Position numbers and translations under genes: made by a program | Shown: in pieces, positions 6,953-48,732 of the stretch | How the letters are laid out: each line of letters opens with the position of its first letter | Numbering within the stretch: the first letter of the stretch is position 1 | IMG/VR virus record: IMGVR_UViG_3300037132_000149 | Span: 1 to 64,000 of that record | Origin: a virus | Direction: 5' to 3' (one strand) | DNA length: 64,000 nt | The notes under the pieces: model-generated | Database searches by the model: none | The model's input: the letters and a program-made list of their open reading frames with translations, nothing else | What the model was told of the DNA's origin: nothing

Positions 6953-6955
6953 ATC

Positions 6956-7204
6956 ATGAAAACCTTGCTCCTGATCGGCGCGCTTGAGTGCGCCCTCTGG
7001 TTTACCGGCATCGCCCTGGGATTCGAGGCGGGGCAAAAGCATCCGGCGCACGTTTACTCGGTCTACGGCCGCGATGGGCTGTTGCTCGACACCTCCACGG
7101 GCCGGCTCTGCGTGCCCGCCGGATGGGTTGCCCCGGCCTATGGCGACGTGCCCGAAGGTTACACGGCCCTCGCGCCCGCCGGCGTGCTCCCATGCCCGCG
7201 GTAA
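6956..7204 (+). CDS. Small exported or membrane-anchored protein (82 aa)
   Basis: The N-terminus MKTLLLIGALECALWFTGIA is a hydrophobic stretch preceded by one Lys, so a signal anchor or signal peptide. The rest (HVYSVYGRDGLLLDTSTGRL) is short and β-like with two Cys. Starts three bases after the winged-helix gene. Function unknown. Confidence 0.55.
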   Translation: MKTLLLIGALECALWFTGIALGFEAGQKHPAHVYSVYGRDGLLLDTSTGRLCVPAGWVAPAYGDVPEGYTALAPAGVLPCPR

Positions 7205-7957: not shown

Positions 7958-8305
7958 ATGAGAAACGGAATTTTCACGTTCGCTGGCTGCCTCGTCCTCA
8001 CCGTCGCGCTCGTCGCCGCGCAGGCGCCACCAACGCCACCGCCAGCGGCGCCACCTGCGGCCCCGGCGGCAGCGCCGCAACCAGCCGAGCCTCCCGGCCC
8101 TGCCCCGCAGCTCACCAGCACAGAAGCCCTCGAGGTCGAGAACCTCACCCTCAAAATGCAACTGCTCAACGGCCAGTTTAACGAACTCCTCGCGCAGATT
8201 AACGGCGAGCATCCTGGCTGGCAGTTCCATCCTGAGCTCAACCGCTTCGTGTACGTCACCCCCCAGCCGGTTCCGGCGCCCGCGGCGAAGGAGCCCAGGA
8301 AGTAA
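7958..8305 (+). CDS. Exported Pro/Ala-rich small protein
   Basis: Starts at ATG 7958 with an AAGGAG ribosome-binding site. Residues 1-21 (MRNGIFTFAGCLVLTVALVA) are a signal peptide with a likely cut after AQA. Residues 22-48 are Pro/Ala-rich, and 53-80 form a short Leu-rich coiled coil (TSTEALEVENLTLKMQLLNG). The stop overlaps the GroEL start (TAATG). An envelope role such as a spanin-like or adhesin-tether protein is possible but unproven. Confidence 0.6.
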   Translation: MRNGIFTFAGCLVLTVALVAAQAPPTPPPAAPPAAPAAAPQPAEPPGPAPQLTSTEALEVENLTLKMQLLNGQFNELLAQINGEHPGWQFHPELNRFVYVTPQPVPAPAAKEPRK

Positions 8306-10059
8306 TGCCCAGACAAATCAAGCACGAAGACGACTGCCGGCAGACGATTCTGCGCGGCATGGACGCGGTCGCCGACCTGGTCGGCTCAACCCTCGGCCCG
8401 CGCGGCCACACGGTCATCATCGGCCAGCCCATCGGCCCGGCCAAGGTCACCAAGGACGGCGTCACCGTGGCCGAGGGCGTCTCGGTTCCCGATCCCTGGG
8501 AGAACGAGGGCGCCAAGCTGATCCAGCAGGCGGCAAGAAAAACCAACACCGAGGCCGGCGACGGCACCACCGCGGCGACCATCCTCACCCGCGCGCTCTA
8601 CCGCGAGGGTATCCGGCAGGTCACTGCCGGGGCCGACTCTCAAGCCCTGGAGCGGGGCATGCGCCTGGCCGTCACCCGCGTCGTCGAGGAGCTCGGGAAG
8701 ATCGCGACGCCCGTGGCCCAGGAAGACCTGGCAACGCTCGAGGCCGTCGCAACCGTCGCGGCCAACGGCGACAAGGAGATGGGCTCAGAGATCGCAAAGG
8801 CCGTGCACCACGCCGGTCTCGAGGGCAATTACACGCTCGATCCGTCGCTGACCTCGAAGACCACTTTCGAGATCGCCAAGGGCTTGCAATTCCAGCGCGG
8901 CCTCGACAAGTGGCCACAGTTCATGAACGACCAGCGGGGCATGGCCATCTTCGGCGCCTGCAACATCTTCATCACCGACATGCACCTGATCGAAGTCGAG
9001 CAGGCCGCGGCGCTGCTGCGCAAATACTCTTCGTTCGGCGGCATGGTGCCGCTCTTGATCATCTGCGAAGACGTGAGCCAGGGCGCGCTCCAGGTGCTGT
9101 CGGCAAACAACGGCCGCAGCGTCAACGTATGCCCGGTGCGCGCTCCCGGCTCCGGGCTTGAGAAGAAGGAAATCCTCCAGGACATCGCCATCCTGACCGG
9201 CTCGACGGCCGTCATGATTGCGCGCGGCGACAAGATCGAGAGCGTCGACAAAGACCACTTCGGCTCGGCCGACCGCGTTCTGGTCACGCCCGTCCGCACC
9301 ACCATCGTCGGCGGCCACGGTCAGGCCGAGCGCGTTGAACTGCGCAAGGACGAACTCAGGGCCAGGATCAAAGACGCCGAGACTCCCGAGTACGGCCGGG
9401 CGCAGCTCGAGCGGCGGCTGGCCATGATCTCGGCCAAGATCGCCATCATCAAACTCGGCGCCGGCGTCAACTCCAAACTGCTCGAAAAGCGTGACCGCGC
9501 CGAGGACTCGCTCAACGCGACCCTGGGCGCGCTCAAGGAGGGCATCGTCCCCGGCGGCGGCGTGGCGCTGATTCGTACGCTGCCAGGCCTGGGCGAACTG
9601 ATCCAGACCATGGCCGGCGACGAGAAGATCGGCGCGCAGGTAGTCGCCTCGGCCCTCACCGTGCCGCTGGCCACGCTCGCCAAAAACGCCGGCGCCAAAC
9701 CTGATGTCGTCGTCCAGCAGGTGATCGAAATGCCCCTGGCCAAGCGTCTCGAATTTGACGACGCACTGGCCCAGGCAAAGCCCGGCATGGCCGAACCGGA
9801 CGGCGACGTTTACCCGCAGGGTACCGGACGGCTTGACTTTTCCGGCTTGGGCTACAACGCGGCCAGGGACTGCTACGAGCACCTGCCGGCCGCCGGCATC
9901 ATCGATCCGGCCAAGGTGGTGCGGCTCGCGCTCGAGAACGCAGTCGAGCTTTCAGGCTTGCTCATCACCGCCTCGGGCGGCGTCGTCGAGGTGCCGGATC
10001 CAGCGCAGCTCGCGGCGATGGTTGCAGCCCGCCAGGCTGCCCAGGGAGGCCGTCCATGA
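8305..10059 (+). CDS. groEL: Phage-encoded GroEL-like chaperonin (group I)
   Basis: A 584-residue Hsp60. Nucleotide-site motifs are intact: STLGPRG (28-34), KVTKDGVTVAEG (47-58), GDGTTAAT (85-92), EDSLNAT and the VPGGGVAL segment. It is longer than the usual 545 residues because of an extra segment near 495-515 (KPGMAEPDGDVYPQGTG) and lacks the Gly-Gly-Met tail of host GroEL. It would fold proteins in an ATP-dependent ring; likely clients are the large virion proteins. No GroES lies next to it, so it must use host GroES or act alone, as reported for some phage chaperonins. It is translationally coupled to its neighbours. Confidence 0.95.
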   Translation: MPRQIKHEDDCRQTILRGMDAVADLVGSTLGPRGHTVIIGQPIGPAKVTKDGVTVAEGVSVPDPWENEGAKLIQQAARKTNTEAGDGTTAATILTRALYREGIRQVTAGADSQALERGMRLAVTRVVEELGKIATPVAQEDLATLEAVATVAANGDKEMGSEIAKAVHHAGLEGNYTLDPSLTSKTTFEIAKGLQFQRGLDKWPQFMNDQRGMAIFGACNIFITDMHLIEVEQAAALLRKYSSFGGMVPLLIICEDVSQGALQVLSANNGRSVNVCPVRAPGSGLEKKEILQDIAILTGSTAVMIARGDKIESVDKDHFGSADRVLVTPVRTTIVGGHGQAERVELRKDELRARIKDAETPEYGRAQLERRLAMISAKIAIIKLGAGVNSKLLEKRDRAEDSLNATLGALKEGIVPGGGVALIRTLPGLGELIQTMAGDEKIGAQVVASALTVPLATLAKNAGAKPDVVVQQVIEMPLAKRLEFDDALAQAKPGMAEPDGDVYPQGTGRLDFSGLGYNAARDCYEHLPAAGIIDPAKVVRLALENAVELSGLLITASGGVVEVPDPAQLAAMVAARQAAQGGRP

Positions 10060-10415
10060 CCCAGGTCATCAGCAAACTCATCGAGACGGACCTGCGCGAC
10101 CTCGACGTGCAGTGCGCCAAGCCCGGGGACCGGCCCGTGGTTGAGCCCGGCCGGCATCGCGCAGCTCTTGCGGCCAAACGCCTGCGGCTGCTGGGTCCAC
10201 GGCTTGCCGGCGAGATCATTCGCATCAAGGAGGGCATGGGCTTCGGCTTCATCCGGCCCGACGGCGGGTTGCCTGAGCACTACGTGCACGTCAGCGCCCT
10301 CGTCGATCGCAGCCTCTGGAAGGAAGGCCAGCGCGTAACCTTTGTGCCTGGGCCACCGTCTGGCGGCCGCAAGGCTCCGCCGGCGCTGGCTGTCGAGGCG
10401 GAGGAGGCACCGTGA
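10056..10415 (+). CDS. Cold-shock-domain protein
   Basis: Residues 50-95 (GEIIRIKEGMGFGFIRPDGG, then EHYVHVSALVDRSLWKEGQR) are a cold-shock domain; GFGFIRP is the RNP1 motif and YVHVSAL matches RNP2 (VFVHxSA). It would bind single-stranded RNA or DNA, perhaps as an RNA chaperone. The first 48 residues are an unrelated charged extension. ATGA overlap with groEL and with the next gene places it in a chaperonin/RNA-chaperone unit. Confidence 0.75.
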   Translation: MTQVISKLIETDLRDLDVQCAKPGDRPVVEPGRHRAALAAKRLRLLGPRLAGEIIRIKEGMGFGFIRPDGGLPEHYVHVSALVDRSLWKEGQRVTFVPGPPSGGRKAPPALAVEAEEAP

Positions 10416-10645
10416 AAATTACTATCGAGAGCACCTCACAGATCGTCACCATCGTCCAGGGCGTCGCTGAAATAACCGCTCGGGTTTGGGAGGGACAGAC
10501 CGAGAGCGGCATCAAGGTCGCCTGCCTGATTCCCAGGATTATGGCAAGTCGAGCCGACGACCTTACCCAGTTTGACGCCGAGCTCAAAGAGCAGCGGGCT
10601 CCGACAGCGGAACTCGATGCCTTTCCGCTGCGCATGATCATCTAG
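10412..10645 (+). CDS. Small conserved phage hypothetical protein (77 aa)
   Basis: Overlaps the cold-shock gene (GTGA/ATG). MKITIESTSQIVTIVQGVAE then ARVWEGQTESGIKVACLIPR is a compact β-rich sequence of a kind I recall from phage early regions; no function is known to me. It ends with TAG in a short sequence that is repeated after the next gene. Confidence 0.55.
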   Translation: MKITIESTSQIVTIVQGVAEITARVWEGQTESGIKVACLIPRIMASRADDLTQFDAELKEQRAPTAELDAFPLRMII

Positions 10646-10669
10646 GGGGACAGTATGCCCATATTTTTC
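10641..10669. repeat. Left flanking repeat of the 24-bp-array gene
   Basis: Twenty-nine bases matching 11688-11716 at 23 positions, beginning with TCTAGGGGG in both. This copy contains ATG and four codons (MPIFF) ending in TAG; the right copy is the live start MPMLF of the next gene. The array gene therefore sits between an abortive and a real copy of the same gene start. Confidence 0.6.
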
Positions 10670-10709
10670 TAGGAGAATTATAGCCTTGACTACCCTGAAA
10701 GGAATCGAG

Positions 10710-11699
10710 ATGACCAAGGATGAATTAATCACAAAATTGCAGAAGATGTTAAAGCTGACCCGCGACCAGCTTTCATGGCTGACCCGCGACCAGCTTTCAT
10801 GGCTGACCCGCGACCAGCTTTCATGGCTGACCCGCGACCAGCTTTCAGGGCTGACCCGCGACCAGCTTTCAGGGCTGACCCGCGACCAGCTTTCATGGCT
10901 GACCAGCGACCAGCTTTCATGGCTGACCAGCGACCAGCTTTCAGGGCTGACCCGCTACCAGCTTTCAGGGCTGACCAGCGACCAGCTTTCAGGGCTGACC
11001 AGCGACCAGCTTTCAGGGCTGACCCGCTACCAGCTTTCAGGGCTGACCAGCGACCAGCTTTCAGGGCTGACCAGCGACCAGCTTTCATGGCTGACCCGCT
11101 ACCAGCTTTCATGGCTGACCCGCGACCAGCTTTCATGGCTGACCCGCGACCAGCTTTCATGGCTGACCCGCGACCAGCTTTCAGGGCTGACCCGCGACCA
11201 GCTTTCATGGCTGACCCGCGACCAGCTTTCATGGCTGACCAGCGACCAGCTTTCAGGGCTGACCAGCGACCAGCTTTCAGGGCTGACCCGCGACCAGCTT
11301 TCAGGGCTGACCCGCTACCAGCTTTCAGGGCTGACCAGCGACCAGCTTTCAGGGCTGACCCGCGACCAGCTTTCAGGGCTGACCAGCGACCAGCTTTCAT
11401 GGCTGACCCGCTACCAGCTTTCAGGGCTGACCCGCGACCAGCTTTCAGGGCTGACCAGCGACCAGCTTTCATGGCTGACCCGCTACCAGCTTTCAGGGCT
11501 GACCCGCTACCAGCTTTCAGGGCTGACCCGCGACCAGCTTTCAGGGCTGACCCGCTACCAGCTTTCATGGCTGACCAGCGACCAGCTTTCAGGGCTGACC
11601 CGCGACCAGCTTTCAGGGCTGACCAGCGACCAGCTTTCAGGGCTGACCGATGAAACTCTGGAAGCCATCATCGAGACCTTAGGAAATTCTAGGGGGTAA
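10710..11699 (+). CDS. Tandem octapeptide-repeat protein (37 x LT[RS][DY]QLS[WG])
   Basis: ATG 10710 has an AAAGGA ribosome-binding site; a TTG 24 bases earlier is less likely. A 15-residue helical leader (MTKDELITKLQKMLK) is followed by 37 unbroken 8-residue repeats and a cap LTDETLEAIIETLGNSRG. Leu1, Thr2, Gln5, Leu6 and Ser7 never vary; position 3 is Arg or Ser, 4 Asp or Tyr and 8 Trp or Gly. The leader and cap show the same LT-x-[DE]-x-L pattern in non-repetitive form, so the repeat probably grew from a natural helix. I recognise no family. The regular Leu spacing predicts a solenoid or extended helical rod; binding to a repetitive partner is possible. Nothing indicates export or membrane insertion. 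Confidence 0.75.
   Translation: MTKDELITKLQKMLKLTRDQLSWLTRDQLSWLTRDQLSWLTRDQLSGLTRDQLSGLTRDQLSWLTSDQLSWLTSDQLSGLTRYQLSGLTSDQLSGLTSDQLSGLTRYQLSGLTSDQLSGLTSDQLSWLTRYQLSWLTRDQLSWLTRDQLSWLTRDQLSGLTRDQLSWLTRDQLSWLTSDQLSGLTSDQLSGLTRDQLSGLTRYQLSGLTSDQLSGLTRDQLSGLTSDQLSWLTRYQLSGLTRDQLSGLTSDQLSWLTRYQLSGLTRYQLSGLTRDQLSGLTRYQLSWLTSDQLSGLTRDQLSGLTSDQLSGLTDETLEAIIETLGNSRG
10755..11642 (+). repeat. 37 perfect-length tandem copies of a 24-bp unit
   Basis: The unit is CTGACC, CGC or AGC, GAC or TAC, CAGCTTTCA, TGG or GGG. All 37 copies are exactly 24 bp and only three bases vary, all changing the protein: C/A in codon 3, G/T in codon 4, T/G in codon 8. There is no synonymous difference. Counting codons 3-4, there are 16 Arg-Asp, 13 Ser-Asp, 8 Arg-Tyr and no Ser-Tyr; codon 8 is Trp 14 times and Gly 23 times. 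Several reading frames on both strands are open through the array as a by-product. Confidence 0.97.
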
Positions 11700-11716
11700 G
11701 GATGCCTATGTTGTTC
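11688..11716. repeat. Right flanking repeat of the 24-bp-array gene
   Basis: Partner of 10641-10669 (23/29 identical). It spans the end of the array gene and the start of the 11702 gene. Confidence 0.6.
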
Positions 11717-11941
11717 AGACAACCCGGCGGAATCGTTGAACTCTCCGACCGCGGCGAGTGGCTCCGAATCACCCGCGAGGTGCCCATGGCCAATGCGATG
11801 GCGCCCTTTGCCGCCTCTGAGCGTGCGCGCCTGCTGCCACACTGGCAGCGCATCGGCCGGCGGATCCGCGTGGCAACGCTTGCCGCGGCCCTGCTGTTCT
11901 TTATTTTGGGCCTGGCCCTGATGATGTGGGTGACGCCATGA
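11702..11941 (+). CDS. Small single-pass membrane protein (79 aa)
   Basis: Starts MPMLFRQPGGIVELSDRGEW. The C-terminal 25 residues (VATLAAALLFFILGLALMMW) form one transmembrane helix preceded by Arg-rich sequence, so the N-terminus should stay in the cytoplasm. The stop overlaps the next start (ATGA). Function unknown; a membrane anchor or lysis/exclusion role is possible. Confidence 0.6.
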   Translation: MPMLFRQPGGIVELSDRGEWLRITREVPMANAMAPFAASERARLLPHWQRIGRRIRVATLAAALLFFILGLALMMWVTP

Positions 11942-16822: not shown

Positions 16823-17274
16823 AGCTAAGCCCGGCGCAGCGCAAAGAACTGCGCGGAATGTTCGGCGGCCGCTGCGCCTACTGCGGCGAGAACCTAGCCG
16901 ACAAGTGGCATGCGGATCACGTCGAGCCGATTGAGCGAGAGACAGAGTTTGTTCTCAGCGTCACAGGCTACGGTTACGAAACCACGAGCGCCGGGTATAC
17001 AAAGAGCCGAGCCACGGGCCGTCTCCGCAAACCCCAAAACGAGCGCATAGACAACCTTTTCCCGGCGTGCGTTCGGTGCAACATTCTCAAGTCCAACGCA
17101 GACGTGGAGGGGTTCAGGACTATGCTCACCTACTTTGCCGAGAGCATCCCGCGAATCGCCGGCTACTCCCATGTGCATCATTTGATGCGATTTGGGAAGA
17201 TCACCATCGACCCAACGCCGGTCATTTTCTGGTTTGAGAAATACAGAGCGCAACGGACGGAGGCTCCAGATTGA
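16819..17274 (+). CDS. HNH endonuclease
   Basis: A GTG at 16819 overlaps the previous stop. The 151-residue protein has an HNH/zinc fold: GRCAYCGENLADKWHADHVE near residues 15-35, then a spacer and NLFPACVRCNILKS. CxxC...CxxC zinc knuckles and the ADH (catalytic His) plus Asn are all visible. Phage HNH proteins cut DNA during packaging, replication or homing. Here it sits between DUF5131 and a DNA methyltransferase, so it might also act on the DNA that the methyltransferase marks (inference). Confidence 0.85.
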   Translation: MKLSPAQRKELRGMFGGRCAYCGENLADKWHADHVEPIERETEFVLSVTGYGYETTSAGYTKSRATGRLRKPQNERIDNLFPACVRCNILKSNADVEGFRTMLTYFAESIPRIAGYSHVHHLMRFGKITIDPTPVIFWFEKYRAQRTEAPD

Positions 17275-19556
17275 AAGCGACAATCCTGGTCGGTGACGTG
17301 ATGGCGCGGCTCGGCGAACTGGCCGACGAGTCCGTGCAGTGTGTCGTCACCAGCCCGCCGTATTGGGGCCTGCGCGACTACAAGATCTCGCCGAGCGTGT
17401 GGCACGCTGTGCCGGGTTGCCGGCACGAATGGGCGGGTGTAGTTAGGCACCGAAGCGCTCGCGGCCCACAGGTGCCGCAGACCATTCACGCGCCGGCCGG
17501 CGATGTTCTTGTCGATGCCCAGCGCGACAGCGTGAGCAACTTCTGCCGGCTCTGCGGGGCCTGGCTTGGCAGCCTCGGCCTCGAGCCAACGCCGGAGCTT
17601 TACGTCGAGCACATCGTCCAGGTCTTCCGCGAGATCCGGCGGGTGCTCCGCAAAGACGGCACGCTCTGGATCAACCTAGGGGATAGCTACGCGACGGGCG
17701 CGGGCAGTGTCGGCAACTGCCCCGGCGGCGGCGGTGAGCAGGGAGCGCGCTGGGCCGGCGATGTCGACAGAATCCGCGACGAGAAGAGAGGCTACAGGGG
17801 CGATCGGCTGGCCAACGGCCATGGGACGAGCCCAGAAATACTCCGACGCAAAACTCGGGTTGGATCAAACCGGGCCCAGCGCGGCGACGGGAAAGGCGAG
17901 GGGGTGCCTTACGGTCCCATGACTCAGCCCAACCGCATGCCGATTGTGGGATGTAAGCCCAAGGACATGGTCGGCATCCCGTGGCTGGTCGCCTTCGCGC
18001 TGCGCGCCGACAGCTGGTATCTGCGCCAGGACATCATCTGGTCGAAACCGAACCCGATGCCGGAATCGGTTCAAGGCTCGCATTATTCCCGGCATCGAGT
18101 TACAATCGAAGAGTATGAGAGATTGTCGGGTTTGCGGTACATTGATGAGCGTGCCGGGGATGACTGGGCCGGCAACATGCCCCTCCTGTCGGAGAGAGAA
18201 GTACCTTGCCGTAAAGCGCCGCTATCAGCAAAGTCCAAAGGGGATTGCGACCTCTCAAGCCAGGGAGGAACGAGAAGACGTAAGAGAGAAGCGCCGGCAA
18301 TTCAGTCGGTCGCAGTACGGGAAGATCAACAAAGCGAAATACGAGGCGACTCCCAAAGGCCAGAAGACGCGCAAGAAGGCGCAGACCAAGTACAAAGATA
18401 CGCCGAAGGCGAAGTTAACGAGCGCCGCGCATCATCAGAAAACAAAAGACGATCCAGCGCGGAGATTGCAACGGAGCGCCGCGAACAGCCGTTATGCCCG
18501 GACAGAGAATGGGAAGGCCCGATCCCGTCGTCAACATGCCCAGCGCAAAGGGGCGATCTTATCCACGGACAACCCGGTGACGGCGCAGGATTGGGAGGAG
18601 ATTCTAAAAGCTCACAAATACCGCTGCTACTACTGCAAAAAGAAGGAGAAATTGACGATGGATCATGTGATCCCGCTCAGCAAGAAGGGCCAGCATACGA
18701 AGGAGAACCTGGTTCCAGCTTGCCAGTCATGCAACTCGAAGAAGAGCAACAAATTGATTCTTCTCTGTTAGTCGGGTGCCCAGGTTGCCCAAAGTGCCTT
18801 GAATACCACGGATACCTCTTCCACATGAGCGCGGGACGCTGCACCAAGAGCCATGAATACCTGTTCCTGCTGACCAAGAGCGCCCGGTACTACTACGATG
18901 CCGAGGCGATCAAAGAGCCGGCGGCAACGGACGATATGCGGCGACCGTACACTTCCGAGGGTGCATGGCAGTTAGACGGCCGACCTGTCGAGCAGCGGCA
19001 TGGCGGGGAGATGCGACCCGGATTTGAGCGTCTCGGCCGAGAGGGCGCAAACTCCAGGATGCACCAGGACAGAGACCCATCACACCCCGAAGAGTGCAAG
19101 GTGCGGACCGCCGGCAACAAGACGCATAAGACCGTCGCCGAATACGAGCGCAGCGACTCCGAGGAACACCGCACGGCTGCCGGGCTGCTCAAGATCGCCG
19201 ACACACCCTACCCACTCCGCAACAAGCGTGATGTGTGGACCATCGCGACCCAGCCTTATCCCGAGGCGCACTTCGCCACCTATCCCGAGGGGTTGGTTAC
19301 GCCCTGTGTTTTAGCCGGCAGCCGCGCCGGCGACCTCGTTCTGGACCCATTCTGCGGCTCGGGGACGACCGGCGCGGTGGCCCTCAAACTCGGCCGGGCC
19401 TTTTGCGGCATCGAACTCAGCGAGGGCTACGCCAAGCTGGCCGAGCGGCGCATCGGCGATGTCGCGCCCATGTTTAACCAGATCGAGACGGTAACCCCTG
19501 TAGATTCGCCGCCCCAATCCGTGCTACGCTCTACGGCAGGAGGCGCATCGACATGA
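17271..19556 (+). CDS. β-class DNA adenine/cytosine-N4 methyltransferase with a 250-residue insertion
   Basis: The first part holds CVVTSPPYWGLRDYK (motif IV, TSPPY at 27-31), then FREIRRVLRKDGTLWINLGD and WYLRQDIIWSKPNPMPESV. The last part holds TKSHEYLFLLTKSARYYYDA, DVWTIATQPY and DPFCGSGTTGAVALKLGRAF (motif I). This motif order (IV before I) marks the β class. Residues about 271-522, between ESV and the CTKSHEYL segment, are low-complexity and Gln/Glu/Arg-rich; they are the second-frame translation of an HNH gene (18115-18771), yet this frame has no stop. The enzyme would methylate phage DNA against restriction or for regulation. Target unknown. Confidence 0.85.
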   Translation: MKATILVGDVMARLGELADESVQCVVTSPPYWGLRDYKISPSVWHAVPGCRHEWAGVVRHRSARGPQVPQTIHAPAGDVLVDAQRDSVSNFCRLCGAWLGSLGLEPTPELYVEHIVQVFREIRRVLRKDGTLWINLGDSYATGAGSVGNCPGGGGEQGARWAGDVDRIRDEKRGYRGDRLANGHGTSPEILRRKTRVGSNRAQRGDGKGEGVPYGPMTQPNRMPIVGCKPKDMVGIPWLVAFALRADSWYLRQDIIWSKPNPMPESVQGSHYSRHRVTIEEYERLSGLRYIDERAGDDWAGNMPLLSEREVPCRKAPLSAKSKGDCDLSSQGGTRRRKREAPAIQSVAVREDQQSEIRGDSQRPEDAQEGADQVQRYAEGEVNERRASSENKRRSSAEIATERREQPLCPDREWEGPIPSSTCPAQRGDLIHGQPGDGAGLGGDSKSSQIPLLLLQKEGEIDDGSCDPAQQEGPAYEGEPGSSLPVMQLEEEQQIDSSLLVGCPGCPKCLEYHGYLFHMSAGRCTKSHEYLFLLTKSARYYYDAEAIKEPAATDDMRRPYTSEGAWQLDGRPVEQRHGGEMRPGFERLGREGANSRMHQDRDPSHPEECKVRTAGNKTHKTVAEYERSDSEEHRTAAGLLKIADTPYPLRNKRDVWTIATQPYPEAHFATYPEGLVTPCVLAGSRAGDLVLDPFCGSGTTGAVALKLGRAFCGIELSEGYAKLAERRIGDVAPMFNQIETVTPVDSPPQSVLRSTAGGAST
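18115..18771 (+). CDS. HNH endonuclease nested in another frame of the methyltransferase gene
   Basis: A 218-residue protein in the +1 frame relative to the methyltransferase. It starts MRDCRVCGTLMSVPGMTGPA with a second CPSC, a zinc ribbon. A long Lys/Arg-rich linker with repeated K-x-T-P-K-(G/A) units follows. The C-terminus is a good HNH domain: HKYRCYYCKKKEKLTMDHVI, PLSKKGQHTKENLVPACQSC, NSKKSNK. The domain set is that of a homing or mobile endonuclease. The coding sequence is clearly better in this frame than in the methyltransferase frame, which it interrupts at a conserved spot. Confidence 0.8.
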   Translation: MRDCRVCGTLMSVPGMTGPATCPSCRREKYLAVKRRYQQSPKGIATSQAREEREDVREKRRQFSRSQYGKINKAKYEATPKGQKTRKKAQTKYKDTPKAKLTSAAHHQKTKDDPARRLQRSAANSRYARTENGKARSRRQHAQRKGAILSTDNPVTAQDWEEILKAHKYRCYYCKKKEKLTMDHVIPLSKKGQHTKENLVPACQSCNSKKSNKLILLC

Positions 19557-22105: not shown

Positions 22106-25100
22106 TTAGTAGTCGATCGGCACGCCGTGCTGGCGCAGCGTGTTCTCAAGCTCAGTAGCCGCCGGCACGTTCAAGCTGGCCAGCGTCTGGATCTTCCGGT
22201 CGGCCTTGGCTTCCATGATGTCAGAGAGTTCCGCGCGCTCGCTCGCGTCGGCTGCGTTCCACACCTTGACCGCGTCGTCGAAGTTGCTCATGTGCTTCAC
22301 GTCGTACTGCAGGTCACTCATCGAGCCGCGCTCCTGGACCCTGGCAGCGTCCTGCGGCGAGATCTTGCCCGTCGACACCAGGTTCCAGAGGTCAGTCTGC
22401 GAGATCTGGCCGTCCCTGAATTTCTGGCTGAGTTGCACATTGCGCCGGCTTTCGGCCTGCCGCTCCTCGCTCTCCGGCTCGTCGGGTATCCCCCTAACGT
22501 AGAGGTCATGCGCCTTCTTCTCGAGGGGCGTGTGGTAGTTCGCCATGTTCGCGCCGAGCGAGGTGAAGAAGCTCTCGATCAGGCTCTGGTCGTTTGTGGT
22601 GAAGAGTTTCTGGACGGGGATCGGCGTGGTCTGGGTCGCGTAGCTCTTAGCAAAATGCGTCTTTGTTTCCTGCCGGCCAAAGTTGTCGCGGCCGGTGATG
22701 AACTCGATCGTCGGCCGTATCGTGACCGGGTTGAGCCGGTTATAGGTCCACTCAGCCGGGCTCGCCACCAGGTGGGCGATGTCCGAGTAAACGGTGCGGA
22801 CCGAGATCGCCTTGTTGCCCCAGGCCGGGCCCCAGCTCTTTGGCGTGACGACGGTAAAGGCATCCTGCGGATCCCAATGCGCTCCGCGGCGCCAGCCCTG
22901 CTCGTGATTAAGGGCAGCGTTGATGATGCGGCATGCGGCATACATCAGCGCCGCGCCGCGCAACAGGGCCAGCCGCTGCTCCGAGCCAAACTTCGAGAAA
23001 CCCTGCGCCACAAACTGCGCCCGGGCCTTGGTGAAGTCGGGCGAGAACAAGAGCAGGTGTTCGGCAGCCTTGAAGGTCCGGTTATTCATCACCTCAAGGT
23101 GCCGGAAGAACGCCGGATCCTGGCCGGAAAACGCAGCGTTGGTCTGGGCCGCGCTCATCAGGCCGATCTCGTCGCGGGTGAGCTTGGCCTGGGCGCCGGG
23201 CCTTCCGCCGCCGTAGCGCTCAAGGTTGCGCTCGTAGATGATCTTGTACGACTTGGCTTTGAGCCGCGGGATCCAGTCGCGGAAGAGGTACCTGTGATAG
23301 GCGCCCATCCCCGGCAGGCCGCTCAACACGCCCTCGGGGTCGATCTCGACCATCTTGAGGCCGTGGCCGACGCCGTCCTGGACGGTCTTATCCTTGGTCA
23401 GGTCCTCGAGCGAGTCCAGCCGGAACGGGTTGATGAAGTGATCGAGCGCGTGCATGCCGAGCTGCACCTGGTGGAACCCTGAGCCGTAGAGGATCACGCC
23501 CTTCACGGTCGACCCGGCCTTGCCGACCGCCCGCGCCGTGCCCTTGATGATCTTCACGGGCAGGTGGTCTGAGGGTGACTCGAACCAACTGCGGGTGACG
23601 AGATCCGAGACCCGGCCGGCATACTTCGGGTGGATGACGATGTCGCCCTTCATGGCCAATTGCTTGCCCTCGGGCACCGGGAACCTGGGATCTTCGGGGG
23701 TAAACAGTTTCGCCTGCTCCGCCGGGTCCATCTTGGCATAGCCGGGTGCGAGCACCTCGCGGTCCTGGTCGTCGAGTTCCCAGGTAAAGTTGCGCAACTG
23801 GCTGGCCGGGATGCGCACGTAGTCGTCAACGTTCTCGGGCCGCTTTGGCTGCTTCATGATCCGGGTCTCGCCGGCCGTGTTCTTGTCGACGATGGCCCAG
23901 CCTGAGCGGCTCTCAAGCGCAGCCAGAGGCCGGCCATCCTCGGGGTCCACCCCATACAAAAGCGATCGCACAAAGCCGCGGGTCATAAAGGTTTTGGTGA
24001 ACGCATCGTGATACGACGATAAGATCCGGCCGGCGTCCATGGTCTTCGGGTCTTCGCCGCCCATGATCGCGTCGAAGAAACTCGGCCAAACCCGGCGCTT
24101 GAGAAAACTGGGGTTCGACATTAACTCAGAGAAGTCCGTCACCGCGCGCAACTTGGCCAGCGTCTCAGGATCAGTGGCAAAGGTGTGCATGGCGTAGTGT
24201 GACGCGCCCGCCGGCAGCAGGCCAGCGTCGGTCAGGATCTTCAACTGCTGCTGGTAGTAGCGGGTGTGCGCGTCGGCCACCTGCTGCTGTTCCGGGGTTA
24301 GATTGAGCGCATCTTTGAAGGCCTGGGCGTTGCGCTTGCCGCCGGGTTTTGACTCGAAGGCTACCGAGCCCGCGCCGGCTGCCCAGCGCTTGAGTGTTTG
24401 CGGGTCGCCACCGGCTTCGCCGTAGGCGGTCATCGCGTTGCGCTCGCGCTCGCTCGGCGCCACGCGCTTCAATTCCTTCTGGTAGCGATCGACGTCCATC
24501 GCGGCGCGCAGCTCGGCCTTGCGCAGGTCGCCCAGATTCTGGAAGTAGTCGGTCCACGGCGCCGGCTGTCCCCAACTGTCCCAGGCACCTGCTGCCGCGC
24601 CCTTGACGCCACCCCAGGCCTTTTCGATCGCGGTGCCGGTCTTGGCCACGGCGGCGACGCCGGCGTCGCTCGCGGCCTCTACACGCTCGCCCATGCCCAT
24701 CTTGCGGGCCGGCATCCCCTTGAGGTCAGCGATCGCGTCCTCAAGGCTCTTGCCGGTATCATGGCCGCCGGTCGTAACCGTGGTGGGGGTCGCCCGTGGC
24801 GCCTTGAGCCCGGCAAGTCGGTCGTGAAACTCCTCCTCGCTCTCGTCGCCGCGTTTGGCGGTGAGGTCTTCCGACACTGGCGTGCGCTTGAAGAGCGGCT
24901 GGCCCTCGGTCATCACGCTCTCGCGCATGGCGTCGGTGACCGGCAGGTAGGGCACGGTCACAGCGCCCAGTTCGCGGTTCAGCCGGTCGGCTTCGGCCTG
25001 GGCGGCGTCGCGGTCGTAATAGTGCATGTCCTTGGCGGGCGTCAAACCCTCCGACGAGATCACGCTGAAATCCGGCTGGCCGTCGCGCGGCGGTCCTTGC

Positions 25101-28100
25101 GTCACGCGCCATTTGTTATCGGGCAGGCTCGTCTCGACGACCTTGGCGCCGAACGGCTTGCCGATTTTGTTGGCGGTCTGGGGCACGATCTTGTCGTAGA
25201 AATTCTTCATCCCCTCGCCGCCGACCTTGAGGTCGAGGCCAGAGAAGGTTTGGCGGCCTACGGTCCCGGCCGCGGGCGCTCCCGCCACGATCTTTGCCGC
25301 CAGGTCCTTGCCCACGTGGTCTGCCAGTTTCTCCTCGGACACATCCAGTTCGACCTCGCGCCAGCGCCCGTCGGGCATGCGCGCTGTCAGATCGTACTTG
25401 CCATTGCCAAAGCCGATCGCGTCCAAACTCTCGATTTGTCTGCTCAGGTCGTATCGTGCCGCCTGCTGCTCACCCGGCGTCCAACTGATGCCGTCGTAGC
25501 CGTTCTCGGCGGCGTAGCGGATCATCCGCTTCATCAGCAGCTCCGGCCAGGTCTTCTTGAAAGGCGCGTTCGGCACGCCGCGATTCCCGTTTTCATTCAG
25601 CCTACGCTGCGCCTCGTCGTACTCGCGGGTGATCGCCGCGAGCCTTGGGTCATCTCTCTCCGCGCCGCGGAAATCAGAGCGAACGATGTTTGTCTGCTCG
25701 ATTGCGTCTTTTGCGCTAGAGGCAGCAACCGTGTACACGATCCGGCCGTTGACCGAAACCTCCCAATCTCCCGGCGCTCCTGCCGCCGGCTCCGCGCTGA
25801 ATTTAGCGAATCCGCGCAATTGCTTCCAGAGGTCGTTGCGCCGTAGCTCAAGCGCCCTTACTTCCTCGGCCGGAAGAGAGCGCAGATACCCTTCCGTGCG
25901 CCCTCTCTGGTGCCAGTCGCTCTGCAACTCCTCTAGGTGCAGCAGCTTTTCGCCGTTCGGGCCGGTGCGGTCGTTGAAGCGCACATGGCCGATGACGTTC
26001 GGCTCTTCCCAGTGCGGCGTGCGGAAATCGACGGCGTGGGTGTCGCTCCGGCTCTTCGTGTCGGCGACGTACTGCATCGCCCGGCCAGCACTGCTCATGC
26101 CGTAATTCTGCTTGGAGATCATGAACTGTTGGCCCGGCGCGTCGATCGCCCAATGTGTCGGCGTCGTGTCCTTCTCGTTGAGCTTCAGCTCAGAGAGATC
26201 GTAGCGCGAACTGCCTTGCGACGGCAGTGTGAGCAGTAGTTCGCGGTAGTTCTCGCCCCCGGGCAGCGTGTAGCCCTCAAATTTTACGGGGCCGGCGAGG
26301 CGCGGTTCCAGCGCCTTAACCTCGCGCTGGTGCGGTGTTCCGCCTTTCTCGACCTCCTGTATTCCTATATCGTTCGCGGCCAGCGTCTCGCGCAGTTCCT
26401 GCGGCTTGACCGGCGCGGTCCCCTTGGCGCGCAGCAGGTCGCCCAGGCCAGTCCACTCGAGCTCTTCCGGCTTCACGCCGTTGTTTTCCAGCATGCGCAG
26501 GGCGGCGTTGGCCGGCATCGGGCCCTGCATCTTCTGGCCGATCAGCCGCTCGCTCTTGAGGTAGAACGTCGGCGCTTTTTCCAGTCCCTGTTCCCTGTTC
26601 CCTGTTCCCTGTCTTTTGAAGAGCGACCCCTGCGGGCTGGCGTCCGACCCTCTAAACAGCGGCGCGTTGCGCTCCATCTCGCCGGCCTTCTTGTCGATGT
26701 CGGCGAGCGGCGTCCGCAGTTGCTCCTCCATCGCCTGCTTCTCGGCCGCGGTCCTGGCCTCCTCAGCCTCCTTGACCGCGTCCTCCATGCCCGGGAAGGC
26801 GATCGGCTCGCCCTGGAGCGGAACAAAGCCCGGTGGCCGGCGGCGCTGGAAGAGGCCGCCCTGGCCGGCAGCCTCTAGTTCTGCTCGCGTCGGCGCTGTT
26901 CCCTCAGCGCCTGGTTGAAGGCCTGCACCACCGGGCTCTCGGCTCCCCGCCGTATCAGGCGCGAGCCCTTGCCGAGGGGTTGCTTCGCGTACTGCTTCCC
27001 GGTTCGGTTGAGCCACTCCTCGGCCTTCTGCCCCTGCTCCTGCTCGAGCTGTTTGCTGTCCATACTCCCTCGCTCTCTTGATTACTTCGGCCAGTTTCGG
27101 GTCGGCGGCCGGCATCCCGTCGAGGACCGCCGGGCCCTTCTCGTCGATCGCGGCTTCGAGCGCCGCCTGCGCCAGGTCCTGCTGCTCGGTTCCCTTCCAG
27201 TCAATATCGGGGTCGCCCGCGAGCGCCTTCCCGACGATTTCCGCGGCGACCTGTGGGCCGTCGGCTTCCTTGTAGAGTTCCCTCAGTTTTGCCAGAACTC
27301 GCTCAAAGACCGGCATCGCGGCAAGCTCTTCCATGGTATCCGACCCGTAAAGCCCCGACCGGATATACCAGCGATGCCAGAGCTCCTCGCGCAACGTCGC
27401 TGGGTCGTAGTCGCCGCGAATCAGCAGCAGCGAACCGTCGGCGTCGCGGCCCTGGTCGAGTGCGAGCGCCAGCGCCTTGAGCGACTCTGCGGCCTGCCGC
27501 ATGCCGGGCCGTACCCGCACGTTCGACTCAAACGATCGCACCCTGGCCACCATGCGCGAGGCCTCGGCGGCCACGAGATAAACCCCCTCGAAACGGTCCT
27601 CCGGAAAAGCGATCTTCCGGATGGCTTCGTAAGCCGGCGCGTTCATCACATGCACCGGCGCCCCGTCGACTTCCATGCGGTCGACTTTAGCCCTGGCGGC
27701 ATTGTCCCAGGTCAGCCGGTTCTCGGCCGCAGAGAGCTCGCGCTGGTACCGTCCCCTGGCTATAAGTCGATTCTGCGTCTCTTCCGCGGTTTCGCCGGGG
27801 AGGCGACCGGCAGGTCGAGCGCCAGCGGGTACATCTCCAGAAGCTCCTCCGGCGTTGCGTCCCTGGTCGGGAACCAGATCTCCGGCTTCTGTCCGGGCCG
27901 GTACCGCACCTCGGGCGGCAGTATCACCTGCGGCTTGCCGAGTGGCTTCACTCGCTCGAGCGGCTGGCGTAGCAGCCGGCGGCGCCTCCTGAATCCGTGC
28001 CCCAGTTTCGGCATCTTCTCCCCCTACAATCTGGCCCGTGTTTGGCTCGACCTGCGTCGCGCGGTCGTCGTACAGTTTCACCATCTTCGGGTCTTTGATG

Positions 28101-31100
28101 TTCGTGATCGGCAGCACCTGGCCCAGGTGTTGCTGGCTCCAGGCCTCGATCGACGCCCGGGCGACTCCGGTTGGGTCGTCGGCCACGCGCGCCGTAAAGA
28201 ACCTGACATCTTTGACCTGTTTGGCGTCAATCCGCTCGCCATTGGCGAGGATGTTCCTGATCCGGTCGACCATCTCCGGAATCGGTTTCCCGATGAACTC
28301 TTTGCCTTTGAACTCGGTGTAGTGGGCGAGCGTCTTGTCGAGATCGACCCCGATCCACTCGGCCGCCGGATCCACTTTTGGCGGCTGCACCCGCTCAAGG
28401 TCGGTCGGCTTCACAGCCTCGCGGAGCTTGCCGTCAGAGAGCCGGACCCTGGCACGCACCAGCCCGGTTGAGGCCGGCGTCACGTATTGCACCACGCCGG
28501 CGGTGCCGTCCCTCAATCGGACGACGTCGCCCTTGGCTATCTCTCCGGGGCCTCGCTCTGCGGCGGCACTACCGGCTCCTGCTGCGCCGGCGCCTCGCCC
28601 TCCTTGGGTTGCATCAGCCCGAACCGGCTGGCGGCCTGCCGGTACAGCTCGAGGCCCCTCAGCACCCGCTGCTTCGCCGCGCTTGTAAGCCTGGGCCAGT
28701 GCGGTCCTTGCGGCGCTATAGGCTCTGCGTTTGATCTCACTCGCGTTCCCCTTTCCCTCGGCCAGTTCCTTGGCGGCCGCGTTAAGGATGTCGTCGACCG
28801 GCCCGGTGCGCGTACTCAGCCGGTCATAAATTTCCTGGTCCTGCGCCGCGGTCTCAGCGGTCTTCGCGTTGTCGGCCGCGTTGATCTTGTTCTGGCCCTT
28901 TTCAAGCGTTGCCGCGCGGCCCTTGTCGGCGACCGTGGCAAAGAGCCTGCGCTCCCTGCCAATCTCGTCGCGGATATAGGCCGAGATCTCCGCCTTCTCG
29001 AGCGCCAGGTTGCGCCGCATCTCGACCGCTCCGAAGAGCGTCTGCTGCGTCTCGGCGTGTTCGCCGGCACCCGACGCCATCCTGGCTAACTCGGCTACCG
29101 TATCGTCACTTACGCGACGGCCCCGCATCTCCTGGCGCTCGATCAGCTTGAGAATTGCTTCCTGCTGCTCTGGGACCGCCGTGGCGTTGCCGATCTCGAC
29201 GGCGCGGCCGATGCGCAACTGCCCGCTGACGACCTTGTCGAAGAGTGAACTGTGGAGCCGCGACAGCGCCAGGCCGTTCGCGGCCGTGGCTTCACCCAAG
29301 GATATGCCCTTTTCTTTCAGATCCGCAAGCCCAATTCCGGTATCGCGGAAGAACTTCGCTGCGTCAACCGCGGTTCCGCGGCCCTCGGCGATGTTCTGGA
29401 GCGCGGCCGTGGCCCGGGCTTCCTCGGCCGTTGCGGCCGGCAGGTGCAGCGCGTTCAGCCTGGGCACCTTGTTGTCCTTGGCGAGCTGCGCCCGGTGGTG
29501 GCCGTTGACGACGTAGAGTTTACCGTTTGCCGGATCTCGCCAGACGGAGATCACGCCGGCCAGGTCCGGGTTCCATTTCTGGCCTTTGAGCAGGTTGGTC
29601 GTCCCCGAGGCGTCGGTATTGAGTTTGTACTGGAAGCGCTTCGGATCGAAGGCTATCTCGGAAGTCTTGATTGACCCTACTTCGCCCGGGCCGGGTTCGC
29701 GTCCTCGGGCGCCACCTTGATCGACCGCACCTCGCTGGGGTCCAGTTTCAGCAATTCCTCGAAACTCGCCGCGTTCCCGCTCGCCGGCGGCGGTGCGGCT
29801 GGCTTTGTGTTCCTTGAGGGCACGCTCGGCGATGCCGGTGTCTGTTCCTGTGCCATAGCTGAAATCCACTCCTTTGTAGAGTTTGCTGGCCCCGTCCTTG
29901 GTTGTCACCTCGATGGCCCGGCCGCCCAGAATCTGGCGCGCCTTCTCGAGCGCGGCCTTGAGTTGGGCTTCGCTCTGGCCGCGGTAGAGAAACTCGTCGC
30001 CCTTGTCGTGATAGGCCTCGAGACCGGCTGCTCTCAGCGCGTCGGCTTTCGCGCGCAGCAGCTCGTCGCCGGCGGCGTAGCCAAAACGGTCATTGAAGGC
30101 CTTGAGGCCGTCCGCATCCGACATCGCGACCGAGGCGGCCGGCTGCTCGCGCTGCTTCTCTTCAAAGGCCCGGCGGTTGGGCAGGCCAGTCTTCTCGCTG
30201 GTCAGCAGTTCGCGCCGCATCTCCTCGGGCGCCATCTCGGCCACACGCTGCCGGCGGCCAGCGTCGACGCGCCGGTCTGGCGCGCCCTTGAGCGGGATCT
30301 CGGTTTCATTCCCCTTACTGTCGGTAACCGTGATCGAGTTGACCTTGAACGGCTTGCCTGCTGTGACCTGGTTGCCCACATACTTCTGAGCAGCCTCGGG
30401 CTTCACGTAGGCGATGGTCGCGTGGGGTTTGTAGTCGGCGAAGTTTGACCGCGCAAAGTCGCCATGCTGCTCGATCTCGCGGTTGAGGCGGGCGAGCTCG
30501 GTGCTCTCGACCGGCGCATGCAGGGGCACGGCGCCATCAGAGTGAACTGAAGGCGGGAAGGCTGCGACGGGCCCCAGCGTCGCATCGAATGGGCTCTGCG
30601 ACTCGATGTAGGAGCGCAGCTCCGGGGTCAGGTCATGTTGCAGGCCGTAACGCACCGTAACATGGTTGCCGCCCACATCCTTGCCCTGGCCGGCAAGGTC
30701 GGCGTCGGGAATCGCGGCGCGGGCCTGCTCGATCGCCTGGGCGGCTTCGGATCCAGCCGGGATGTTCGAGTGCGTGGTGCCGAACTCGTGCTCGGTCGCC
30801 GTCTCCTGCTGGCGCGCCTGAAAGTCCTGCCAGTGTTGGTCGTTCCGCTGGCGCAGCTCGGCTGCGGCATCCTTGTCGCCGTCGCGCGCCTTCTCGTAGA
30901 GGCTGTGGTCTTTATTGGCGGCGTCGGCCACTTCGCGCGGCAGAATCTGCACCTCGTGCGACACATCGGACCCGGGCGCGCGCACGTTGAGCGTGTAGGA
31001 GTGGAACCCATGATCCTCGTCGCCCTGGGCGAAGTTGTCCTGCTCGGCGTGCACCTCGAAGCGCTGGCGAAGCGCCGCGATCGTAGCCGGAACGTCAGCC

Positions 31101-33157: not shown

Positions 33158-34782
33158 TATTGCCCGGGTCGCGACTCGGCGACCCATTTACCGCCTCGCT
33201 TTACTTCAATGTGACCGTCGGGTGCCTGCCGGCGCAGCCCCTCGGGGGCGGGCTGCCGCGGTGCCTTGCGGCTCGTCGCGGCGGCCGCGGCCGGCGACTG
33301 CACCAGTTGGCCCTGCGGGTCGATCATCCAGCCGTCCTTCGCTAGCTTCGCGTTCGCGTCCTGGCGCAACTTTGTGACCTTGGCGTCGTACTCGGTGCCG
33401 GTGATTGAATCGAACTTTCCCGGCACCGTGGTGCGATAGTTGCCGTTTGGCTGTCGCTTCCAGGTGCTGGTGAACTCCGTGATCTTGCTCATGCCGTCGT
33501 CGGCCGCAGCCTTGACAGTATCCGGCGGCGTTGCGCTTGGCGGCTCCTTCTCCCGGCCGCCGGCCACCTGGTTGATCTGGTTGAGGTCGTCGAGCGTCGG
33601 TTGCTTGCCGCGGTTGGCCGGGTCGCGCTCCCATGCCCGCAGGGCCTGCGCCCGGGCCGTCTCCTCGGCGGTGGCCTGCCGTGGGTCGAAAAGCCGGCCG
33701 TTGGCGCGGTAGAAAGCGGCGTACTGGCCCTTGAGGCCGAGCCTGGTCGCTTCAGCATCCCACTGTTTGTACTTGGCTGCCCACTCGGCATTGGTCTCGG
33801 CCGTCTTGACGGCTGCCTTTGCCTCGGGGGTGTTCTGGTCGGCCGTGGCTTGGGTCTTCACCAGGTCCGCCGCCGTGGTGCCGACGTGTGCATAGTCGGG
33901 CGCAACGGTCTGGAGATCCTTGCCCTTGTCCCGAATTGCCGAGGTCGCCGCGTTGAAGCGCGCGATGATGTCGGCCTTGCGCTGCTGGTCCTGGGCGAGT
34001 GTTCCCTGCCGCAGTTGCTCGTCCTCGGTGTAGTCCTTGTTTGGCGAGCCGTAGGGCGTCGCCTGATCGGGGTGGCCGCCAAAGCCCTCGGCGAAGTTCT
34101 TGAACACGCGGCCGACTGTGCCCCCGAAACTATCCTTGTAAAGCGGTTTGCCAGTCACCGGATCTGTCGCCCTGGGATTGGTGGGGATTGAATCGGTCTC
34201 GATTTTCGTGTCGATCGCCGTGGTGTCGGGCGCTGCGGGTTCGGCCTGGAAGGCTTGCCGATTCTGGTCGGCGATCGAGAGCTCGCCCTCGAGACCCTTT
34301 TGGGCGTAGCCTGCCCAAGGTGCCGCGCCAGCCGGTGCGGGCGCCGCGGGGTTCGATGGGTTCGGATTGGGTGCGGCCGGGTCGGGCGCCGTGGCTGCTG
34401 GTCCCAGCGTCTCTGGCGGCGGGGCGGCCGGCTGGCCGGGCTGGGGCCTCGTGTGGAGTACGGGCCTGGCCGGCGAGCCTGGAGGATCCTGAAAGCGTGG
34501 ATCCGGATCGGCAGCCGCTGGCTGCGGAGCAGCAGCCGGAGCGGCCGGTTCGGGGGTCGGCGGAGGGGTTGCCTGCGCAATCTGCACGGCCTGCGCGCTG
34601 GCGTTCCTTTCATCGCTGGCGGCCTTATACGGGCCCGAGAGTTGGCTCAATGCGGCGGAGGCCTTGCCCGGGTTTGCGCGTAGTTCGTCTGGGTCGTATC
34701 CGGCCGCCGCGAGCGGCGCAGAACTCCGGCTCATTGAGGCCAGGTCGCTGCCGTCTGCCCAGTCTGTCCAGTCGTCAGCCAT
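33157..34782 (-). CDS. Probable internal virion protein (541 aa), Pro/Ala-rich
   Basis: The ATG at 34782 overlaps the previous stop (TGATG). MADDWTDWADGSDLASMSRS is followed by a Pro/Ala-rich region (about 75-170) and a helical, charged middle (LAQDQQRKADIIARFNAATS, TQATADQNTPEAKAAVKTAE). The C-terminus contains TEFTSTWKRQPNGNYRTTVP and a disordered tail. Composition and position between the helical 34782 gene and the giant gene resemble ejection proteins of podoviruses. No homology is claimed. Confidence 0.55.
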   Translation of the reverse strand: MADDWTDWADGSDLASMSRSSAPLAAAGYDPDELRANPGKASAALSQLSGPYKAASDERNASAQAVQIAQATPPPTPEPAAPAAAPQPAAADPDPRFQDPPGSPARPVLHTRPQPGQPAAPPPETLGPAATAPDPAAPNPNPSNPAAPAPAGAAPWAGYAQKGLEGELSIADQNRQAFQAEPAAPDTTAIDTKIETDSIPTNPRATDPVTGKPLYKDSFGGTVGRVFKNFAEGFGGHPDQATPYGSPNKDYTEDEQLRQGTLAQDQQRKADIIARFNAATSAIRDKGKDLQTVAPDYAHVGTTAADLVKTQATADQNTPEAKAAVKTAETNAEWAAKYKQWDAEATRLGLKGQYAAFYRANGRLFDPRQATAEETARAQALRAWERDPANRGKQPTLDDLNQINQVAGGREKEPPSATPPDTVKAAADDGMSKITEFTSTWKRQPNGNYRTTVPGKFDSITGTEYDAKVTKLRQDANAKLAKDGWMIDPQGQLVQSPAAAAATSRKAPRQPAPEGLRRQAPDGHIEVKRGGKWVAESRPGQ

Positions 34783-47907: not shown

Positions 47908-48732
47908 TTATTGCTGCTCTTCTACCGGCTTGCCGCCTGCCTCTGGATCCCCGGCGTCGTCGACGGCGTCGAGGAAACTCTCGGCAACCGCTTCGGGCTC
48001 GGGTTCGGGCTCATTTTCCGGCTGCGCTTCCATGGTCTCGGCGACCGCCTCCGGCTCGAGGTGGGTCTGGCCCTCGTCGACGAAGGTCTGAGGTTCGGCG
48101 ACGACGACGCCTGACTCGGGCTGCGCCTGGGGCTCCTCACCCGGTTGCGCACCGCCGGCCGTTGCATCGGCGGCGGCCTTGTCGGCCGCGTCGGCGTCGA
48201 GATCTTCGGCCGATGGGAGTTGCTGCTTCACGATGCCGGAGCTGAGGGCTTCGGCGAGGGCGCCCGGTGTGCGCAGCGCGCGTGCCATCGCGCTCGCCTG
48301 AATGGCTTCGACGATTCTGTTCGAGGCCACCTTGTGCATCTCGACATCGGGATCGGCGATCAGCGCGAGCAAGGCCTCAACCTTGTCGAAGGGCTGCCAG
48401 CCGCTGGCCCTGGGGTTCGCGTTCATCTGCGCCTCGAGGTCCTTGGCGGCCTCGTCGCGTTCCGGGCCCGGCCGGAACTGGGCTGCGGCGGTCTGGCGCG
48501 CGTACTCGCCGGCAACGCCCAGGCGAATCGCGGCTGCGATCAGCATCGGGGCTCCGGTCACGGTTGACGGCACGCCGGCCTCGTCCAGGTAGATCAAGCT
48601 GAGGTGATGGCTGACCATCCTATACCCGGCGTGCATCCCGATTGCGGGACTGCCGAGCGCAACGGCGCGATACCCAACGCCACCGACCACGTACAACACG
48701 GGGTCGCCCTTCTTGATTGCTGCAAAGTCCAT
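47908..48732 (-). CDS. Hypothetical late protein (274 aa) with acidic tail
   Basis: Residues 1-60 look like a β-barrel (KKGDPVLYVVGGVGYRAVAL, MVSHHLSLIYLDEAGVPSTV). A helical middle follows (EALLALIADPDVEMHKVASN) and the last 90 residues are acidic and Pro/Gln-rich, typical of a disordered tail. It lies between portal and scaffold, where small head-assembly chaperones or decoration proteins are often found. Family not recognised. Confidence 0.5.
   Translation of the reverse strand: MDFAAIKKGDPVLYVVGGVGYRAVALGSPAIGMHAGYRMVSHHLSLIYLDEAGVPSTVTGAPMLIAAAIRLGVAGEYARQTAAAQFRPGPERDEAAKDLEAQMNANPRASGWQPFDKVEALLALIADPDVEMHKVASNRIVEAIQASAMARALRTPGALAEALSSGIVKQQLPSAEDLDADAADKAAADATAGGAQPGEEPQAQPESGVVVAEPQTFVDEGQTHLEPEAVAETMEAQPENEPEPEPEAVAESFLDAVDDAGDPEAGGKPVEEQQ

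Follow-up and report, generated by a model that had tools for sequence, protein, structure and literature searches.

Octapeptide-repeat arrays of phages vary recurrently at three codons: a 37-unit gene from a virus record and its relatives

Octapeptide-repeat genes that vary at the same three codons are present in the virus described here and in several other phage contigs. The DNA analysed, hereafter the window, is a stretch of 64,000 bp from an IMG/VR virus record (G000, 65,401 bp), and its repeat gene consists of 37 exact 24-bp units encoding LT[R/S][D/Y]QLS[W/G], enclosed by two short caps. Our best account, in which we place a little more belief than doubt, is that the gene encodes an accessory solenoid of the phage that is probably intracellular, with recombination reshuffling its units and selection diversifying three probably exposed sites. 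The repeat family, Pfam PF20080 (ALTTAQ_rpt), was already known, as were one solved relative and two phage genes of the same organisation, Tweety gp54 and BPP-1 bbp36, both described by 2007 and lacking an assigned function. As far as our tools show, what is new is a phage branch of ALTTAQ arrays in which the same three codons vary recurrently, the attachment of these arrays to a domain that is otherwise found with pentapeptide repeats, and the finding that a single phage can carry repeats of different types.

The window array and its predicted fold

The preliminary description of this DNA had reported 37 consecutive 24-bp copies without length variation, in which only three bases vary and every change alters an amino acid (codons 3, 4 and 8). 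Both statements were confirmed, and the copies lie in one open reading frame (Table 1). The sequence AAAGGA sits just 5' of the ATG start, and the C-terminal cap is formed by a 38th, diverged unit, LTDETLEA. The encoded protein is acidic (charge -6.5, pI 4.8).

Table 1. Features of the window and their positions (bp of the window)
Feature	Position	Strand	Remarks
GroEL-like chaperonin gene	8305..10059		phrog_5725, 363 bits; 99% identical in sister phage L016
Left copy of imperfect 28-bp direct repeat	10643..10670	+	21/28 identical; resembles a vestigial start of the downstream gene
AT-rich segment	10643..10754		112 bases upstream of the array
Repeat-protein gene	10710..11699	+	329 aa; N-terminal cap, 37 octapeptide units, C-terminal cap
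N-terminal cap MTKDELITKLQKMLK	10710..10754	+	single amphipathic helix in the model
Array of 37 exact 24-bp units	10755..11642	+	helix of 4-6 residues per unit in the model
C-terminal cap LTDETLEAIIETLGNSRG, with stop codon	11643..11699	+	terminal helix; from sequence and model
Right copy of 28-bp repeat	11690..11717	+	contains the downstream gene's ribosome-binding region and intact start
Segment mostly missing from L016	16803..19742		the other large gene-content difference between the two phages
DNA methyltransferase ORF	17271..19556		761 aa; methylase matches near both ends, long insert between them
ORF adjoining the terminase	22106..33187	-	one ORF of 3,693 aa
tRNA-Leu (gag)	48210..48301	+	inside a region of mostly long - strand ORFs

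Among the 37 units, codon 3 is CGC in 24 and AGC in 13, codon 4 is GAC in 29 and TAC in 8, and codon 8 is TGG in 14 and GGG in 23, and six of the eight possible unit types are present. The pair Ser-Tyr at codons 3 and 4 had been noted as missing, and it is indeed absent against 2.8 copies expected (Fisher P=0.03); site 8 is independent of sites 3 and 4. The order of the units is close to that of a shuffle, with a longest repeated block of 3 units (3.3 expected) and 8 identical neighbouring units (6.4 expected). The earlier remark that copies of one type are interspersed holds, but the pattern may partly reflect an assembly filter. The longest exact repeat within the array is 107 bp, which short reads can cope with in assembly. 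Longer duplications would cause an array to be lost or fragmented, and this biases the observed arrays towards shuffled order. The unit number and order of all arrays discussed here rest on metagenome assemblies.

The absence of synonymous change, also pointed out before, is true but weak for the window array alone, since with three variable sites an outcome of three nonsynonymous out of three is expected about 34% of the time (P=0.34). Taken by itself the array is therefore unremarkable, and its interest must rest on the comparison with relatives. Both this figure and the shuffle-like order would suit a selfish or neutral expansion, in which a solenoid tolerates any exposed residue and slippage and gene conversion spread chance variants, as would a sister phage that does without the gene.

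The window protein matches PF20080 with 130 bits (gathering cut-off 26.4) in nine stretches, and its 37 tandem octapeptide units in a single frame are those of a member of that family. Its best sequence match among solved structures is HeliScrew4 (PDB 9ZEM; phmmer E=1.5e-13 over 96 residues), for which a literature search found no paper. The unit is thus not new to protein databases, and the statement that no phage protein with such a unit had been described stands as regards function, but not as regards the repeat family. An AlphaFold2 model from the single sequence (pLDDT 84) contains 37 regular helices, one per unit at unit positions 3-7, flanked by the longer helices of the caps; together with the match to HeliScrew4, it supports the earlier suggestion of a solenoid. 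When this model was used in Foldseek, the best PDB match was mesothelin, with low TM-scores (0.2-0.35), and 9ZEM was absent from the results. Mesothelin is a right-handed solenoid of 24 short helices (PMC10035497). Matches to SAM_3, CAAP1, the Mesothelin profile, HTH_26 and LRR chains in Pfam, PHROG and PDB were set aside, as they reflect the composition of a leucine-rich repeat and not homology. None of the tool results assigned a function to the protein.

The resemblance to known proteins is uneven. PF20080 members share the eight-residue unit L-[TS]-x-x-[QE]-[LIV]-x-x; however, those cellular members that we read are long proteins with divergent units, whereas the phage arrays are short, capped, mostly near-identical in DNA and variable mainly at three codons. 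HeliScrew4 likewise has tandem LTPEQIAA-like octapeptide units, twelve in number, but it is a protein of 120 aa with mixed units and no Trp/Gly alternation. The likeness of the window model to mesothelin, with its right-handed solenoid of short helices, is a resemblance of fold only; unlike the window protein, mesothelin is an animal cell-surface protein with longer, ARM/HEAT-like repeats.

From these data the protein may be pictured as an unbroken solenoid of short helices, of the ALTTAQ/HeliScrew type, in which every eight residues add one turn of helix and amphipathic cap helices close the ends. Residues L1, T2, Q5 and L6 would hold the coil together, with T2 capping the helix and L1 and L6 forming the core, while residues 3-4 would start the helix and residue 8 would lie in the connector. 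Judging from the pattern of variation, residues 3, 4 and 8 are probably exposed in such a model and would form a binding surface.

Related phage arrays and their variable codons

An exact-unit scan of viral contigs returned nothing beyond the window's own record, and the repeat protein gave no confirmed relative by tblastn against named phages or by pattern plus tblastn in viral contigs; the failure of tblastn is probably due to low-complexity filtering, which masks the array. The two-unit pattern LTxxQLS[GW] had no match in 84,980 genomes. A broader four-unit pattern retrieved cellular ALTTAQ proteins, archaeal LTPEQLRG arrays and several out-of-frame chance matches. The archaeal arrays, in Heimdallarchaeota MAGs (L032, L034, L038), are uniform octapeptide arrays placed near the end of a larger protein.

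Phage relatives were found by degenerate DNA-pattern scans, which revealed about ten other phage contigs with such arrays. Some are stand-alone and short-capped like the window protein: L024 (at least 24 units), L026 (15), L017 (26) and L018 (23). In others the array is fused to a C-terminal domain: L011, L014, L015, L022, the G002 phage (L019/L023) and G003 (L027).

The arrays of the window and of L011, L014, L015, L019, L022, L024 and L026 are near-identical internally, and all of them vary at codons 3, 4 and 8, with few other variable codons; in L022 the variation at codon 3 is only synonymous. Where arrays have an amino acid in common, they often use different codons for it. In each of these eight arrays position 8 alternates between Trp and a small residue, by GGG/TGG, GGA/TGG or TGT/TGG, and the more diverged array of L018 has GGT/TGG. 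That the same alternation is reached through different codon pairs argues for selection at the protein level and not for mutational bias. The arrays of L017 and L018 are far less uniform and contain many synonymous and other differences.

When the distinct variants of the eight near-identical arrays were pooled, 32 were nonsynonymous and 3 synonymous, against an expectation of 28-31% synonymous (about 10; P=0.005-0.002, a value to be taken as a guide, as variants were counted as independent and may share ancestry between arrays). This excess goes against neutral expansion, as does the recurrence of the same three codons with the same kinds of alternatives despite different codon usage. Moreover, the open frame and the caps are retained in every stand-alone relative that we read. 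Taking into account these points and those in its favour noted above, we consider neutral expansion unlikely. The simplest reading of the relatives is recombination within each array combined with selection for alternatives at three sites, and this comparison lends good support to the earlier proposal of an array that recombination keeps uniform while certain fixed sites are diversified.

Diversity-generating retroelements (DGRs) also produce variable regions in which variation is confined to fixed positions. A targeted hypermutation of this type, writing the variable codons, would share this feature with the arrays; however, no reverse transcriptase (RVT_1) was found in G000 or in eight records with related arrays, and outside the array the window has no further copy of the unit that could serve as a template repeat. 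In addition, the alternatives differ between arrays and include two-base changes, unlike adenine mutagenesis. As far as tested by the RVT_1 search and the search of the window for a second unit copy, a DGR is excluded, and we give the whole idea of targeted hypermutation hardly any credit.

It could also be supposed that the 24-bp units act as DNA, being sites of recombination, replication or packaging, and that the open frame is incidental. The near-perfect DNA repeats and the replication genes next to the relatives would agree with this, as would the fact that several frames are open, which is a consequence of the 24-bp period. Against it, the relatives hold the octapeptide pattern though their codons change, the frame of the array runs on through the caps and fused domains, and the coding frame is the one that matches the protein repeat family. 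We therefore rejected a function in DNA alone, which appears very improbable.

Another possibility is that the solenoid reads nucleic acid in the manner of TALE or PUF proteins, a single base or base pair being read by residues 3-4 (and 8) of each unit. Each unit does have two adjacent variable residues, and these are coupled in several arrays (RA/PD in L019, QD/RY in L024); the helical solenoid and the presence of PUF and ARM folds among the weak Foldseek matches point the same way. However, the window protein is acidic, the charge changes from array to array (about -11 to +5), and no TALE or PUF family was matched by the window protein in Pfam or NCBIfam. We regard such a reader as improbable.

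Genome context, a sister phage and changes of array length

On the 5' side of the repeat gene, which is on the + strand, are the GroEL-like gene and a cold-shock-like gene, and on the 3' side a phrog_997 'replication terminator' gene, a DUF5131 gene and the DNA methyltransferase gene. The sister phage L016 (65,655 bp) is about 97-99% identical to the window phage where the two align and is cleanly devoid of the repeat gene, its upstream gene being directly joined to the downstream gene; a PF20080 search of the L016 record gave no match. A single copy of the 28-bp repeat is found at this place in L016, and the window has two, one on each side of the gene. An insertion that duplicated the start of the downstream gene and a deletion through recombination between the 28-bp copies are each compatible with this arrangement. 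The segment upstream of the array has 38% GC as compared to 64% in the upstream neighbour gene, which is consistent with acquisition from elsewhere.

The relatives adjoin genes for RecE/Erf recombination proteins, DNA polymerase, helicase, SSB and replication initiation. Given this neighbourhood, the dispensability of the gene in the sister phage and the lack of any virion feature found, the protein is probably intracellular. The preliminary description had listed a surface rod among the possible roles, and this now seems less likely. A structural rod or ruler, serving as a spacer of the virion or the cell surface whose length matters and not its surface, would fit a long regular solenoid, the differences in unit number among relatives and the existence of long cellular ALTTAQ proteins. 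However, no virion domain or tail homology was found for the window protein in Pfam or PHROG, and the relatives lie among DNA-metabolism genes. Moreover, the terminase and the 3,693-aa ORF are on the - strand, opposite to the repeat gene, and a spacer needs no residue diversity at three fixed sites. We hold this role to be quite unlikely.

We infer that the surface of the proposed solenoid binds something, and that the partner is a varying component of the host or of a competitor, for instance a defence protein. Our guess is that a varying partner of this sort would explain the diversification, and the anti-defence decoy proposed earlier is possible. The protein itself had no match in PADLOC, and membership of a defence system was rejected on that basis; as PADLOC covers defence, this result does not speak against counter-defence.

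Recombination between identical 24-bp units would copy, delete and homogenise them, and selection would maintain more than one residue at each of the three exposed codons; the surface could in this way be altered by reshuffling of units. Duplicated blocks of units are seen in L026 and L024. G002 and G003 are 100% identical over a 4,156-bp flank and represent the same phage, with at least 35 full units in G002 and 14 in G003. The G003 array consists of the first ten G002 units followed by the last four, as if recombination had taken place between two identical five-unit blocks of G002. It must be taken into account that the G002 contig breaks inside the array at both ends, and that the lower unit number of G003 may have arisen in assembly, by collapse of identical blocks of 120 bp.

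The preliminary description also proposed that the order of the repeats may carry specificity. In the window this order looks random. When arrays are pooled, sites 3 and 4 have an excess of matching residues at a distance of three units (P about 0.001 at each; six arrays, 24 tests), with P=0.02 and 0.01, respectively, when the block-duplicated arrays are left out; site 8 of the same arrays has no three-unit period. This is suggestive of three units per solenoid turn.

A shared C-terminal domain and exchangeable repeat types

The C-terminal domain of the fused proteins (consensus WHTCETTHC..GW) was found at 42 loci in a scan, and in about 30 of these it is preceded by pentapeptide repeats. These arrays have two variable positions, occupied mostly by S/R/T and G/D/R/Y. 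In L013 a ten-residue repeat stands before the domain, and in L097 a hexapeptide-like one. Its carriers, which are phrog_31265-like, are only L011, L013-L015, L022, L023/L027 and the pentapeptide relatives, and the same domain is joined to pentapeptides in some proteins and to helical octapeptide arrays in L011, L014, L015, L022, L023 and L027. The window protein is without it and ends in its short cap. In the predicted model the domain is all-helical (pLDDT 90); searches found neither a Pfam family nor a solved relative for it, nor a meaningful match of fold, nor a relative among named phages. Pentapeptide repeats adopt a beta fold. That helical and pentapeptide arrays have this domain in common points to an exchangeable repeat part. 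Two phages with helical arrays, L024 and L014, carry a second array gene of another kind.

Two phage genes described earlier have a similar organisation. In mycobacteriophage Tweety, gp54 is an accessory gene with a DNA array of short units, is absent from the relative Llij and has no known function (PMC2884959). Its variation changes amino acids, as in the window, at two residues (G/W/Q and S/Y); it differs in having the tetrapeptide AA[GWQ][SY], other flanking domains and no PF20080 match. In Bordetella phage BPP-1, bbp36 (VR2) has 24-bp units, present in 9-20 copies depending on the isolate, and is dispensable (PMC2884959). It is unlike the window gene in sequence, with a GTATAG[YDEV]x unit behind a DUF7666 domain, and the window protein has no match to DUF7666 or phrog_18079.

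These likenesses raise the possibility, which we put forward tentatively and with more doubt than belief, of a general class of diversifiable phage binding proteins encoded in early regions, formed by short-unit solenoids of unrelated folds and needing no reverse transcriptase. Helical octapeptides, pentapeptides, hexapeptides, GTATAG and AAGS units would be interchangeable before a shared C-terminal domain, and a small common set (R, S, D, Y, G, W) would supply most of the exposed residues. Recombination would reshuffle the order of the units to track changing targets in the host or in competitors. Should our reading of the arrays hold, the shuffling of exact repeats would be a means by which phages diversify the surface of a protein, the three exposed sites being reused in different arrays, and Tweety gp54 and BPP-1 VR2, both noted as puzzles in 2007, would fall into one testable class. 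There would also be a concrete set of relatives to express, and a natural, compact and modular scaffold for the design of binders.

In L014, a hexapeptide array gene (GEWATV/GARATV; 18-bp units, about 19 copies; Pfam Hexapep) occupies positions 4505-5155, shortly downstream of the octapeptide array. L024 has a gene like BPP-1 bbp36 at 9469-10221, with GTATAG[DVY][RYGD] units, in the same phage as its octapeptide array, and a DNA invertase gene (6524-7147) lies between the two. The ten-residue repeat of L013 (2857-2998; 30-bp units, WT[PL]SxLxAAG), which stands before the WHTCETTHC domain, is itself a solenoid-like unit.
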